Assembly: GCF_900114835.1 (NCBI RefSeq)
Contig: NZ_FOUJ01000002.1
Span: forward strand, 328,374-392,373
Length of the DNA stretch: 64,000 nucleotides
Source: Methanolobus profundi
GTDB lineage: Archaea; Halobacteriota; Methanosarcinia; Methanosarcinales; Methanosarcinaceae
Reading direction: 5' to 3'
This document shows, in pieces, positions 22,847-27,153 of this stretch. The position numbers and the translations under genes are program-made. Position 1 is the stretch's first letter; each line of letters opens with the position of its first letter. The notes under the pieces were generated by a model that made no database searches, had not been told where the DNA came from, and worked only from the letters and a program-made list of their open reading frames with translations.

Positions 22847-23236
22847 ATGCACAACGCAAACCTGTACTATTCACAGTTCGAAAATGTATCTGATTTCCTG
22901 AGGGATGTCAAATATATAATTGTGTTCTATGTACTGGGAGATTTCCTGACGACGGCCCATGCCTTGAATTACGGATTCGAGGAAAATGATTTTCTGGCTG
23001 TTATTATGCAGAACTATGGTGTTGGCTCCCTTCTTATATTGAAGATCCTGTTCCTTGCGATCGTATATTGGAATTACAGAATGCTCAAGGAATCTGGCTC
23101 CAGATGGATGGATCTTCTGTGGGTCATGTCAAGGAAATGCATTGCGCTTGTAGGATTGTTCCTGGTGGTGAACAACCTGATGGTCATTTTCATGGAATGC
23201 AGCTTGCTGCAGGTGATCCAGACCATGGCAATATGA
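22847..23236 (+). CDS. DUF5658-like integral membrane protein
   Basis: A 129-residue protein with three predicted membrane helices: VKYIIVFYVLGDFLTTAHALNYG split around 20-40, GVGSLLILKILFLAIVYWN (about 58-76), and CIALVGLFLVVNNLMVIF (about 98-116). The DxxTT motif in the first helix and ENDF after it match DUF5658, a small archaeal and bacterial membrane family without known function. No good ribosome site precedes the ATG, so the start is uncertain. Immediately downstream lies a tandem A-rich repeat (23239-23334). Confidence 0.6.
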   Translation: MHNANLYYSQFENVSDFLRDVKYIIVFYVLGDFLTTAHALNYGFEENDFLAVIMQNYGVGSLLILKILFLAIVYWNYRMLKESGSRWMDLLWVMSRKCIALVGLFLVVNNLMVIFMECSLLQVIQTMAI

Positions 23237-23592: not shown

Positions 23593-23700
23593 TCATCTGA
23601 CAATAGCTGAGAACAGACTCAGAGACAACATCAGTAAAATATATACTGAAACAAGAAGCAGAAGTTTTGCAGCTGTTGATTTTCCTGACCTGTCGAACAT
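23593..23700 (-). CDS. 35-residue single-helix membrane protein, paralogue A
   Basis: Too short for ordinary gene calling. ATG at 23700, TGA at 23593-23595. The N-terminus is polar (MFDRSGKSTAAK), then residues 13-34 are almost all Leu, Val, Ile, Ser and Met with a Tyr at 20, ending in Arg. It aligns with two other 35-residue frames nearby (24154-24261 and 25176-25283): Asp3, a G-[KN]-S motif, a Lys eight residues before a Tyr, then a hydrophobic helix. A TATA box at 23724-23733 puts the transcript start at or beside the ATG, and there is no ribosome site, so it is probably leaderless. Function unknown. Confidence 0.6.
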   Translation of the reverse strand: MFDRSGKSTAAKLLLLVSVYILLMLSLSLFSAIVR

Positions 23701-23723
23701 AACAGTCTGCAAAAACAATTAAA

Positions 23724-23733
23724 TGATATAAAT
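23724..23733 (-). promoter_or_regulatory. TATA box of 35-aa paralogue A
   Basis: TTTATATCA on the minus strand, about 28 bases upstream of the ATG at 23700, the distance expected for a leaderless archaeal transcript. Confidence 0.5.
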
Positions 23734-23764
23734 AGATTTCTTTTTGCTTGAGACTAGTCCACAT

Positions 23765-24153
23765 TTATTAGGATGAACAAATTAAAAAAGTATCAGACCT
23801 GAACAATATGCCCCATGGACCTTTTGTCAGAAATGACAGATCGGATGGCCGGAGAAGATTCAACTTTAGAGGGGTTTCGTTTTTCGAAGTAGCTTTAGGA
23901 GAACGCTAGAATAATCATAGGCTCTTACCGATCTGTCTAGGCCATAGTAAAGACAGGATCATATTTCAATGTTACGAATGACTATTTTTGTAATATTTTG
24001 TATGCACCTTCAATATATTCTCATAGTAGAGTGCAAGCAATGATACATATCCAGAAGGACCTATATCACAAATATACATAGGTACTGAGTATTACACGAT
24101 GTAAGGGGATAAAAAAAGAAAGATGGAATAGATATGACAGTGAATATTGATGA
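23765..24153. other. Intergenic stretch without a confident gene
   Basis: About 390 bases between paralogues A and B. It contains a 33-codon plus-strand frame (23808-23909) with a protein-like but unrecognised sequence and no clear promoter. I see no tRNA or strong hairpin. Base composition is AT rich with a more GC-rich patch at 23815-23875. Confidence 0.4.
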
Positions 24154-24261
24154 TCAAATATTCACAAAACCAACGAACAGAACGACTCCTAACAAAAGCA
24201 ACATATATAGAACTCCAACGAACATGACCTTAACTATATTTGAATTACCAGAATCATTCAT
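24154..24261 (-). CDS. 35-residue single-helix membrane protein, paralogue B
   Basis: ATG at 24261, TGA at 24154-24156, exactly 35 residues. It begins MNDSGNSNIVK and continues with a 20-residue hydrophobic helix rich in Val, Leu, Met and Gly, with Tyr at 19, ending FVNI. The start MND-x-GNS and the Lys11/Tyr19 spacing are shared with paralogue C. A TATA-like TTTATG lies about 33 bases upstream. No ribosome site. Conservation of length and pattern across three copies is the main reason to believe it is translated. Function unknown. Confidence 0.6.
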   Translation of the reverse strand: MNDSGNSNIVKVMFVGVLYMLLLLGVVLFVGFVNI

Positions 24262-24684
24262 ATAATACCACGGAATAGTAAAAACAGACATAGCATAAAT
24301 TATTTTCTATTTTTATATTTTAATTAAATAATAGTGGTCTGCACACATACGAACAGGACAGGCACTCACCTCCAAAATGTGAGCTCACATGGATGTTCTA
24401 TACAGAGGCCAGTTACAACTATTTCACAGGGCACCATAAGGCTGCATCGATAAAATTGAAGATCATGAGCAACTATGTAATGGGAATGTCATCAAAATAA
24501 AAGAGAGAACTTTCCATTAGCTTCTTTTTAAGCAAATTTCAGATGACATCGTATCGATCATACGCTATATAGACTATAGGTCAATATTGCGGGATAAGAT
24601 AGACAGACAAGATATGAGGGCACAAAATATAAACCAAAAATACTACAATATCTGAAAAATATTTGTCAGTTTTTGGTGGTACAA
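24262..24684. other. Intergenic stretch with a palindrome and possible gene remnant
   Basis: About 420 bases, very AT rich at 24290-24330. It holds a perfect 14-bp palindrome (24377-24390) and a plus-strand frame (open from about 24333 to the TAA near 24500) that looks protein-like (FYTEASYNYFTGHHKAAS) but has no start signal. It may be a relic of a lost gene. The promoter of the PH-domain gene lies at its right end. Confidence 0.35.
24377..24390. promoter_or_regulatory. Perfect 14-bp palindrome
   Basis: ATGTGAGCTCACAT, without spacer. Such a site could bind a dimeric regulator; it lies 308 bases upstream of the PH-domain gene and 116 bases upstream of paralogue B. Confidence 0.3.
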
Positions 24685-25128
24685 ATGAGATACATCAAGG
24701 ATAATTTAAAACCAGGCGAATGGGTTGTTTTCGAAACTGAAATGCACTGGGCAGTTATCATTTATGCGATAATATTAGGGATCCCACTTTATTATGTGCA
24801 TTGGGCACTATATTTTGTACCTTCGTTATATTTGCTCCCCCTCTACGGAAGTACAGAAGTTTCAGTAACTAATCAACGCATAGTTATGAAACATGGTTTT
24901 CTTACAACGAATATTGATGAGATCTTTCTGGATAAAATAAATAACATTACTCTTAAGCAGGGATTGCCCGGGATAATGCTTGGATATGGCAGTGTCCATG
25001 TCCATACAGCTTCAATGTTTGGAAAAAAGTATTTTCTTTTTATGAAGGATCCAGCAAAACTAAAGGATGTAGTATCAGAGCAAGCTGCTAACTGCAGACA
25101 AAAGGAAACAAGCAAATGGCAGATATAA
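24685..25128 (+). CDS. PH-domain (bPH2/DUF304) membrane protein
   Basis: A 147-residue protein. Two membrane helices near the N-terminus (WAVIIYAIILGIPLYYVHWALYFVPSLYLLPLY, split at about 23-40 and 42-58) are followed by a bacterial pleckstrin-homology domain: STEVSVTNQRIVMKHGFLTT, IDEIFLDKINNITLKQGLPG and GYGSVHVHTAS. Such proteins are small membrane-linked domains of unknown role. ATG at 24685 has GGTGGT in front; an in-frame TTG at 24673 is less likely. It sits amid three 35-residue membrane proteins transcribed the other way. Confidence 0.8.
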   Translation: MRYIKDNLKPGEWVVFETEMHWAVIIYAIILGIPLYYVHWALYFVPSLYLLPLYGSTEVSVTNQRIVMKHGFLTTNIDEIFLDKINNITLKQGLPGIMLGYGSVHVHTASMFGKKYFLFMKDPAKLKDVVSEQAANCRQKETSKWQI

Positions 25129-25175
25129 GTGAGGCAGACAGATCAGAACGGTCACCTAACGTACCTACTAACCTG

Positions 25176-25283
25176 TCATATACCTGCAAGTCCTGAAACC
25201 AGTACTATGGCAAATAACATTATGATATACATGAAAGTGAACATCACAACTTTCAGAACACCAGAGTTACCATGATCATTCAT
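25176..25283 (-). CDS. 35-residue single-helix membrane protein, paralogue C
   Basis: ATG at 25283, TGA at 25176-25178, exactly 35 residues. It begins MNDHGNSGVLK, then a hydrophobic helix (VVMFTFMYIIMLFAIVLV) ending SGLAGI. Shares MND-x-GNS, Lys11 and Tyr19 with paralogue B and the same length as both others. A TATA-like TTTATAGG lies near 25315-25322. A weak GGTG precedes the ATG by three to six bases. Divergent in nucleotide sequence from B, so protein-level constraint is likely. Function unknown. Confidence 0.6.
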   Translation of the reverse strand: MNDHGNSGVLKVVMFTFMYIIMLFAIVLVSGLAGI

Positions 25284-25420
25284 ACGCACCATATTAAGAG
25301 GTAAGGCAACTCCCTATAAATAATCAGTTAAAATGTAATAATTATTAAAATACTAGCTATGAAACGAGTGAAAACAAAATACAATTCAGTCATTGATAAT
25401 AAACAAAAAGAGAAAAAGAC

Positions 25421-25606: not shown

Positions 25607-25715
25607 TCCCGCCTCCCAGACTCGAACCGGGGACATCGCGGTGCCTGCGCGTAATGTGATCATGTCACATGAATCAAACTACAGCCGCGCACTCTACCAA
25701 CTGAGTTAAAGCGGG
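25607..25715 (-). tRNA. tRNA-Tyr (GTA) with intron
   Basis: The acceptor stem CCCGCTT pairs with AGGCGGG (C1-G72, as in archaeal tRNA-Tyr), discriminator A. D arm ACTC-AGTTGGTA-GAGT. Anticodon stem CGCGG/CCGCG with loop CTGTAG-intron-A, anticodon GTA. The 36-base intron (25643-25678) is inserted after position 37, the canonical archaeal site, and contains an internal ATGTGA/TCACAT hairpin suited to a bulge-helix-bulge for the splicing endonuclease. T arm CCCGG-TTCGAGT-CTGGG. No encoded CCA. Confidence 0.93.
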
Positions 25716-25956: not shown

Positions 25957-27153
25957 TCAGAATGTATCGAGTTCGCCGCTGATCACCATCTGAGTGATCT
26001 TGGTAATGTCAGCAAGCCAGTCATCTATGACGACCTCGGTCTCAGCCCTTATGGAAGCAAAGTTCGCGCCATCTGCCGGAATGATCTGAGCACTTGCCAC
26101 AAGTGGCTGGTCTATTGGCTGACCGATCTGTGAAAGGAGCTTGATATAGACATCCTCTACTTCAGGGACAGCCTTCACAATATCTTTTGCCATCTGGGTA
26201 GAGAGCAGGTTGTAGATCTTACCGATGTGGTTGATCGGGTTCTTACCACTGGTAGCTTCCATGCTCATTGGCCTGTTAGGAGTGATAAGACCGTTACAGC
26301 GGTTACCTCTTCCTACAGAACCATCATCACCCATCTCAGCAGAAGTACCGGTAACTGTCAGGAAGACAGAGTCACATTTCTCATTGTCAGCTGCATTGAT
26401 GAAAGTATTGACTTTACGGTCTGTGCGCTTAAGTGCAAGATCGGTAACGTAATCTGCCATCTCTTCCTTGATATTGATATAGTGGTCCATGTCATCCACA
26501 TGTCTGCCGACCATACCACAGCATATTGTCAGATTGATATCATCATTGTCCCTGAGACCCATGACCTTGATATCAGTTCCAATTCCAGGGATCTTCTTCT
26601 TCAGGTCTGTGATAAGCATCCTCTCTGACTCATAGACTATCTGCTCAAGTTCTGAGAAAGGAGCATGACCCACACCAAAAGAGGTGTCATTTGCTACAGG
26701 GACCCTGTCCCTGTTGAAAACATCTCTCAGATCTGATGAGCCTGTACCAAGCTTACAGTCTACTATGATATCACTTTCAAGATCAATATCCACAATTGTG
26801 TTTCTGATATAGTCCCTTGCTGCCCTGAGAGCAACGGACTCAGCAGGAATCTCTACACCTTCGAACTCCTTTGTTGCCCTTCCCACGAGCAATGTGTATA
26901 TAGGCTGAGTGACCTCTCCGCCTCCAAACTGCGGATTCGAGCGTCCTGCCACGATCTGTGTCTCATCAGTATTGTGGTGAAGTACCACGCCACATTTTTC
27001 AATATATTCCTTACACAACGCACGGCTTACAGCCTCAGCAAGACCATCGGAGATACTGTCAGGGTGACCTACACCCTTTCTCTCAACAAGCTCGATCTGC
27101 TGTTTTTCCACCGGTGTTTCAATCAGGTGTTCGACTTTGATGTTTCGAATCAT
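25957..27153 (-). CDS. mat: S-adenosylmethionine synthetase, archaeal type
   Basis: Makes AdoMet from methionine and ATP. The archaeal enzyme (398 residues) differs from bacterial MetK but keeps short motifs: [18 protein letters not shown] (substrate and metal), [34 protein letters not shown], and [17 protein letters not shown] in the active site. Ends in VISGELDTF. It supplies AdoMet for the radical SAM enzymes and methyltransferases found elsewhere in the window. Divergent from the his operon across a 264-base spacer with TATA-like elements on both strands; a leader of about 80 bases is likely. Confidence 0.95.

Follow-up and report, generated by a model that had tools for sequence, protein, structure and literature searches.

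The window, a stretch of 64,000 nucleotides of Methanolobus profundi DNA, was found to carry on its minus strand three short open reading frames (P0001, P0002 and P0003) which lie as an array between a DUF5658-like gene and a metK-like gene. The features of the locus, in positions of the window, are as follows.

22847 to 23236, plus strand: DUF5658-like membrane protein of 129 amino acids, convergent with the array and a conserved marker of the locus
23593 to 23700, minus strand: P0001, a 35-amino-acid single-helix protein of group B, MFDRSGKSTAAKLLLLVSVYILLMLSLSLFSAIVR, with orthologues in 13 other genomes
23726 to 23734, minus strand: TATA box of P0001, TATTTATAT; both this box and the leader GCAGACTGTT are conserved in group B
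24154 to 24261, minus strand: P0002, a 35-amino-acid single-helix protein, MNDSGNSNIVKVMFVGVLYMLLLLGVVLFVGFVNI, whose orthologue in M. psychrotolerans is L097
24294 to 24301, minus strand: TATA-like box of P0002, AATTTATG, the weakest of the three
25176 to 25283, minus strand: P0003, a 35-amino-acid single-helix protein in the group A position, MNDHGNSGVLKVVMFTFMYIIMLFAIVLVSGLAGI, or 38 amino acids if the start is the ATG at 25292
25315 to 25323, minus strand: TATA box of P0003, TTATTTATA
25326 to 25351, minus strand: AT-rich upstream element, ATTTTAATAATTATTACATTTTAACT, common to P0003 and the group A promoters of at least seven other species
25957 to 27153, minus strand: metK-like gene, which bounds the array on the opposite side in 16 loci

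The three frames had been described in a sequence-only reading of the window; their coordinates and translations were all confirmed, as were the features said to be common to them (D3, a G-[KN]-S motif, a Lys with a Tyr eight residues on and a helix running to the end), with P0001 carrying one extra N-terminal residue relative to P0002 and P0003. DNA identity among the three frames was 47-54%, and the similarity of their proteins (ungapped BLOSUM62) was above that of at least 99.99% of 20,000 shuffles in which head and helix composition was preserved. The description of all three as exactly 35 residues long holds for the frames as given, but it is the choice of start that decides the length (the alternative ATG of P0003 lies in frame, three codons upstream); an ATG, GTG or TTG is found at the same upstream place in several other groups, and lengths across the family range from 30 to 38 amino acids. 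P0001, P0002 and P0003 are best explained as real genes, each with its own transcription, that encode single-pass membrane microproteins. All three are unannotated; automatic annotation overlooks genes this short.

Read from the metK-like gene (which we take to encode S-adenosylmethionine synthetase), the order in the window is P0003, P0002, P0001, and the typical array consists of three genes, belonging to groups A, B and C. Peptide genes adjoin the DUF5658-like gene in 19 loci, 17 of Methanolobus type and 2 of Methanomethylovorans, and in these the metK-like gene forms the opposite border wherever the contig extends to it. When loci were instead collected by a search anchored on DUF5658, and so not chosen for peptides, 11 of 19 had a peptide gene (two of the 11 weakly), including 7 of the 8 labelled Methanolobus and none of the 3 labelled Methanohalophilus. 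A role as leader peptide (attenuator) of a co-oriented gene was rejected, as the DUF5658-like gene beyond the array is convergent in 19 of 19 metK-locus cases. The other paralogues are lone genes away from the metK locus: group D has AIM24, cytochrome c, rubrerythrin-like and thioredoxin-reductase-like genes as neighbours, group E CbbQ-like and VWA genes, and group F channel-like and sensor-kinase-like genes, part of these names being tentative assignments. No neighbour common to all groups was found in the neighbourhoods of the family loci. An Rfam match of 46.7 bits at 25607-25715 of the window (minus strand) marks a tRNA gene that was missed by ARAGORN; it has an apparent intron after a GTA anticodon and, given that anticodon, is probably a tRNA-Tyr. 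Rfam placed no family over the peptide genes, its matches in the window being limited to two tRNAs and a sub-threshold sRNA over the tRNA-Asp region.

Related short frames had been expected in sister genomes, and they were found. The profile of alignment A3, with a family cut-off of E ≤ 1.4e-4, matched 86 members in 26 genomes of two genera: 78 in Methanolobus (20 of 27 genomes, 1-7 per genome) and 8 in Methanomethylovorans (6 of 6 genomes). The 3.1 Mb genome of M. profundi has six, namely the three in the window and one on each of the contigs C7, C11 and C14; genome G005 has three, at 504,204, 1,510,344 and 1,914,627. All 86 frames are unbroken, with no internal stop in any member, and a single-peptide query alone sufficed to find relatives in most of the 27 Methanolobus genomes. 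In the rest of the order's genomes the profile gave no match below E = 0.002, and in a sample of 393 genomes of the phylum it gave only two further matches, at about 1e-4, both within frames of more than 350 residues; as the searched genomes are also rich in membrane helices, these searches are a fair control of specificity. A profile made without any P0001-type seed recovered P0001 (E = 5.4e-6) together with its relatives (E from 2.4e-7 to 5e-3), the best clear non-member standing at about 0.1, and a profile made without P0001-type or Methanomethylovorans sequences recovered both. The profile recovery and the shuffle test together uphold the proposal of a true paralogous family of single-helix membrane proteins. 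The least certain members are L141, L142, L120/L121 and L122. The frames at 7348-7443 of L141 and 6677-6772 of L142 are family-like short frames within a conserved pilin-like operon, and their membership is uncertain. The orthologous members at 2749-2901 of L048 and 10589-10741 of L049 overrun the usual end by a tail of about 20 residues, possibly a lineage-specific extension or a frameshift.

The motif, taken over 81 members, is [KR]11-x7-Y19-x2-[ML]22-x2-[ASG]25-x4-[AS]30-[GA]31. A basic residue falls within the first 13 positions in 81 of 81, positions 13-30 are without charge in 74, and a K or R is present within the last five residues in 22 (mostly in groups B and E) and lacking in 59. 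A single-sequence structure model consists of one helix, from 4 to 34, with a mean pLDDT of 88.6. From the basic N-terminal part and the positive-inside rule the N-terminus is predicted to be cytoplasmic, giving an N-in/C-out topology. The near-invariance of K/R11, Y19, [ML]22, [AS]30 and [GA]31 in otherwise variable helices suggests specific protein contacts, beyond hydrophobicity. A one-faced helix interface was looked for, and a single conserved face was rejected (conservation moment not significant, P = 0.37).

Substitutions within orthologous groups were mostly at codon position 3, and median dN/dS was 0.12 in group A, 0.30 in B, 0.13 in C, 0.11 in D, 0.20 in E and 0.07 in G, so that the selection on protein features proposed earlier was found, by the Ka/Ks check, to be purifying across the orthologous groups. 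P0002 and its M. psychrotolerans orthologue are alike at 25 of 34 residues (dS 1.36, dN 0.18); P0001 and its closest pair, L118, are less one-sided (dN 0.18, dS 0.26). Identity was 66-83% over the last 50 upstream bases, 71-92% at codon positions 1-2, 43-79% at position 3 and 35-57% past the stop codon, the downstream flank being equal to shuffled sequence in groups A and G; in the other groups it was modestly higher. High identity upstream and at codon positions 1-2, together with low identity past the stop, indicates that the constrained unit is the promoter, a short leader and the protein. On these sequence comparisons the family members were shown to be coding and under purifying selection.

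The TATA-like element that had been reported ahead of each gene was recovered, centred about 29 (P0001), 36 (P0002) and 34 (P0003) nt before the start codon, and family-wide the centres lie mostly 28-38 nt upstream of it. For 81.6% of the primary transcripts of M. psychrophilus a promoter is predicted about 19-22 nt from the start site, and leaderless transcripts make up about 16% (PMC5378194); when this promoter spacing is set against the TATA spacing of the family, leaders of about 2-12 nt are predicted. No ribosome site was seen in group B and a GAGGT-like one in group D, and TGGTA stands just ahead of the start in groups A, E and others. In group A and P0003 the upstream element, 5' of the TATA box, has the form TTTTAATAA...ATTTTAAC, which is consistent with a candidate site for a regulator. 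Bacterial-type promoter and terminator scans gave results at chance level, the bacterial models not being relevant to an archaeon.

Searches of Pfam, NCBIfam and PHROGs gave no match over the cut-off (scattered sub-threshold matches involved one or two members), the family profile had no match in the PDB, P0002 had no match among plasmids, and no description of the family was found in the open-access literature. The earlier remark that no such archaeal family was known agrees with its absence from Pfam, NCBIfam, PHROGs and the PDB. Single-helix microproteins are a known kind; the present family of them, with its many paralogues in one archaeal lineage, is unlisted.

To the reading that the family consists of separately expressed single-helix microproteins which bind and tune a larger membrane protein we assign a probability of roughly 0.5. 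The N-terminus would be kept in the cytoplasm with the C-terminus outward, and the helix would use Tyr19 and [ML]22, together with the small [AS]30-[GA]31 pair, to dock either onto itself or onto an integral membrane protein of larger size; docking would then change the activity or stability of the bound membrane protein. The paralogues may have a common binding surface and different promoters, such that different conditions would supply different versions of the peptide to the same or similar targets. The parallel proposed is with accessory membrane peptides, among them those of the sarcolipin type. Supporting this reading are the 86 intact members in two genera and a conservation limited to promoter, leader and coding sequence, and the occurrence of lone genes in many settings is in step with a trans-acting role. 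A precedent is provided by MtrI and MtrR, stand-alone small proteins of the same order that act on a membrane complex (PMC12774963, PMC13370731). Against this reading, the PH-domain protein, the cbb3-type oxidase and the P-type ATPase all mismatch as partners by distribution, the groups have no common neighbour, and the conserved positions do not lie on one helix face.

The first of these candidates, a membrane protein with a bacterial PH domain encoded at 24673-25128 on the plus strand of the window (PF03703, E 2.5e-11), had been put forward earlier as a possible partner, which was not borne out: M. profundi alone has its gene, which none of the 26 further Methanolobus genomes contains, while the peptides persist. 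Its presence in one of the 27 genomes indicates that it probably joined the array recently. A role as regulator of the P-type ATPase in the manner of sarcolipin was rejected likewise, an orthologue of the ATPase being present in 9 of 27 genomes and missing from M. profundi, which has group E. A fused cbb3-type oxidase (COX1, FixO and cytochrome c domains) of about 950-985 amino acids was observed in four of the 27 genomes of Methanolobus, an anaerobic methanogen (L134:2633-5509, L123:6605-9562, L124:8171-11020 and G012:C35:5619-6875); in its vicinity are a P-type ATPase and genes of the CbbQ-like and VWA kinds.

That oxidase bears on another explanation, in which the peptides are constitutive small structural or assembly subunits, one complex per paralogue, as CcoM or CydX are for oxidases. 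The groups do lie near differing membrane or redox genes, and group E adjoins the fused oxidase in three genomes; however, a CcoM/CcoQ-like subunit of this oxidase was rejected, since the oxidase is confined to 4 of 27 genomes, four of the seven group E genomes are without it and in genome G012 it occurs although group E does not. M. profundi, as described above, has group E but not the P-type ATPase that lies near it elsewhere, and no operon with a constant neighbour was seen. We consider the subunit explanation improbable. The sequence-only reading had compared the peptides with type I toxins or with small regulatory membrane proteins. In the toxin explanation, the chief functional rival, they would be stress-induced membrane-damaging peptides which would depolarise the membrane and slow growth and would be checked by antisense RNA. 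Their size, their one helix and their arrays, of about three copies as in Ldr, fit such peptides, and groups B and E often have a basic final residue. In most type I toxins the C-terminus is basic, and it mostly faces the cytosol (PMC8309996), whereas 59 of 81 members have no K or R in their last five residues; furthermore, the predicted leaders of about 2-12 nt have no space for a structured leader, the 3' flank, where the promoter of a cis antisense RNA would be expected, has an identity equal to that of shuffled sequence or modestly higher, and orthologues stay at fixed places across species. A toxin is therefore unlikely, though an antisense RNA that acts in trans or is itself unconserved may exist.

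Lipid-facing peptides, adjusting packing, curvature or heat and cold fluidity under stress with no protein partner, would account for hydrophobic helices under many independent promoters, and in M. psychrophilus intergenic transcripts induced by cold are a common occurrence (PMC5378194). Near-invariant K/R11, Y19 and [GA]31 at fixed spacing nevertheless exceed what a lipid role needs, and we consider this explanation quite improbable. It is hardly credible that the frames are not coding and mark either conserved RNAs or open frames that AT-rich intergenic DNA contains by chance: the setting is indeed AT-rich and intergenic and short hydrophobic frames are commonplace, but dN/dS far below 1 with variation at codon position 3, 86 intact frames that have nothing near-equal in the order's other genomes or in the phylum sample, and the lack of an Rfam family over the peptide genes all speak against it.

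Within the preferred reading of peptides that bind and tune a larger membrane protein, a more specific form may be tentatively suggested, in which the family would be the archaeal equivalent, reached by convergence, of sarcolipin/phospholamban: a set of one-helix peptides, each with its own promoter, all acting on a single membrane machine that methylotrophic methanogens conserve, which would be retuned as conditions change. If the target of the family were an energy-conserving complex, the peptides would form a new control layer over methane production. Methanogen genomes may hold whole uncounted families of membrane regulators, and a family that has a clear motif as well as orthologous groups and promoters makes the binding partners of lineage-specific archaeal microproteins testable.

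Among known systems, Ldr has 35 residues, one helix and several chromosomal copies (PMC8309996), and the family is like Ldr/Fst in size, in its one helix and in its multiple copies. It differs from them in that the C-terminus of most members is not basic, the predicted leaders are very short, conservation of an antisense region was not seen, and the copies are divergent orthologous groups, not near-identical repeats. Ribo-seq of Methanosarcina mazei has yielded unannotated small ORFs (PMC11456600), which are likewise short intergenic genes overlooked by annotation, although the profile search found no family member in the order's other genera. MtrI and MtrR of M. mazei are also encoded by small stand-alone genes in the same methanogen order, and theirs is an action on the Mtr membrane complex; MtrI (68 amino acids) has four helices and a zinc ribbon, and MtrR (49 amino acids) is hydrophilic and without a membrane helix (PMC12774963, PMC13370731). 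The present family, with its one helix, is set apart from both by these descriptions of the proteins. Accessory single-helix peptides such as sarcolipin/phospholamban, KdpF, AcrZ, MgtS and yeast PMP1 have about 30-50 residues and act by binding a larger membrane protein, and some of them are paralogue families with a helix motif. No sequence relation to the sarcolipin-type peptides was found in the profile search of the PDB, and the present family is archaeal and limited to two genera; the likeness to sarcolipin/phospholamban, KdpF, AcrZ, MgtS and PMP1 lies in the same size class, in the one membrane helix and in paralogues that share a helix motif.
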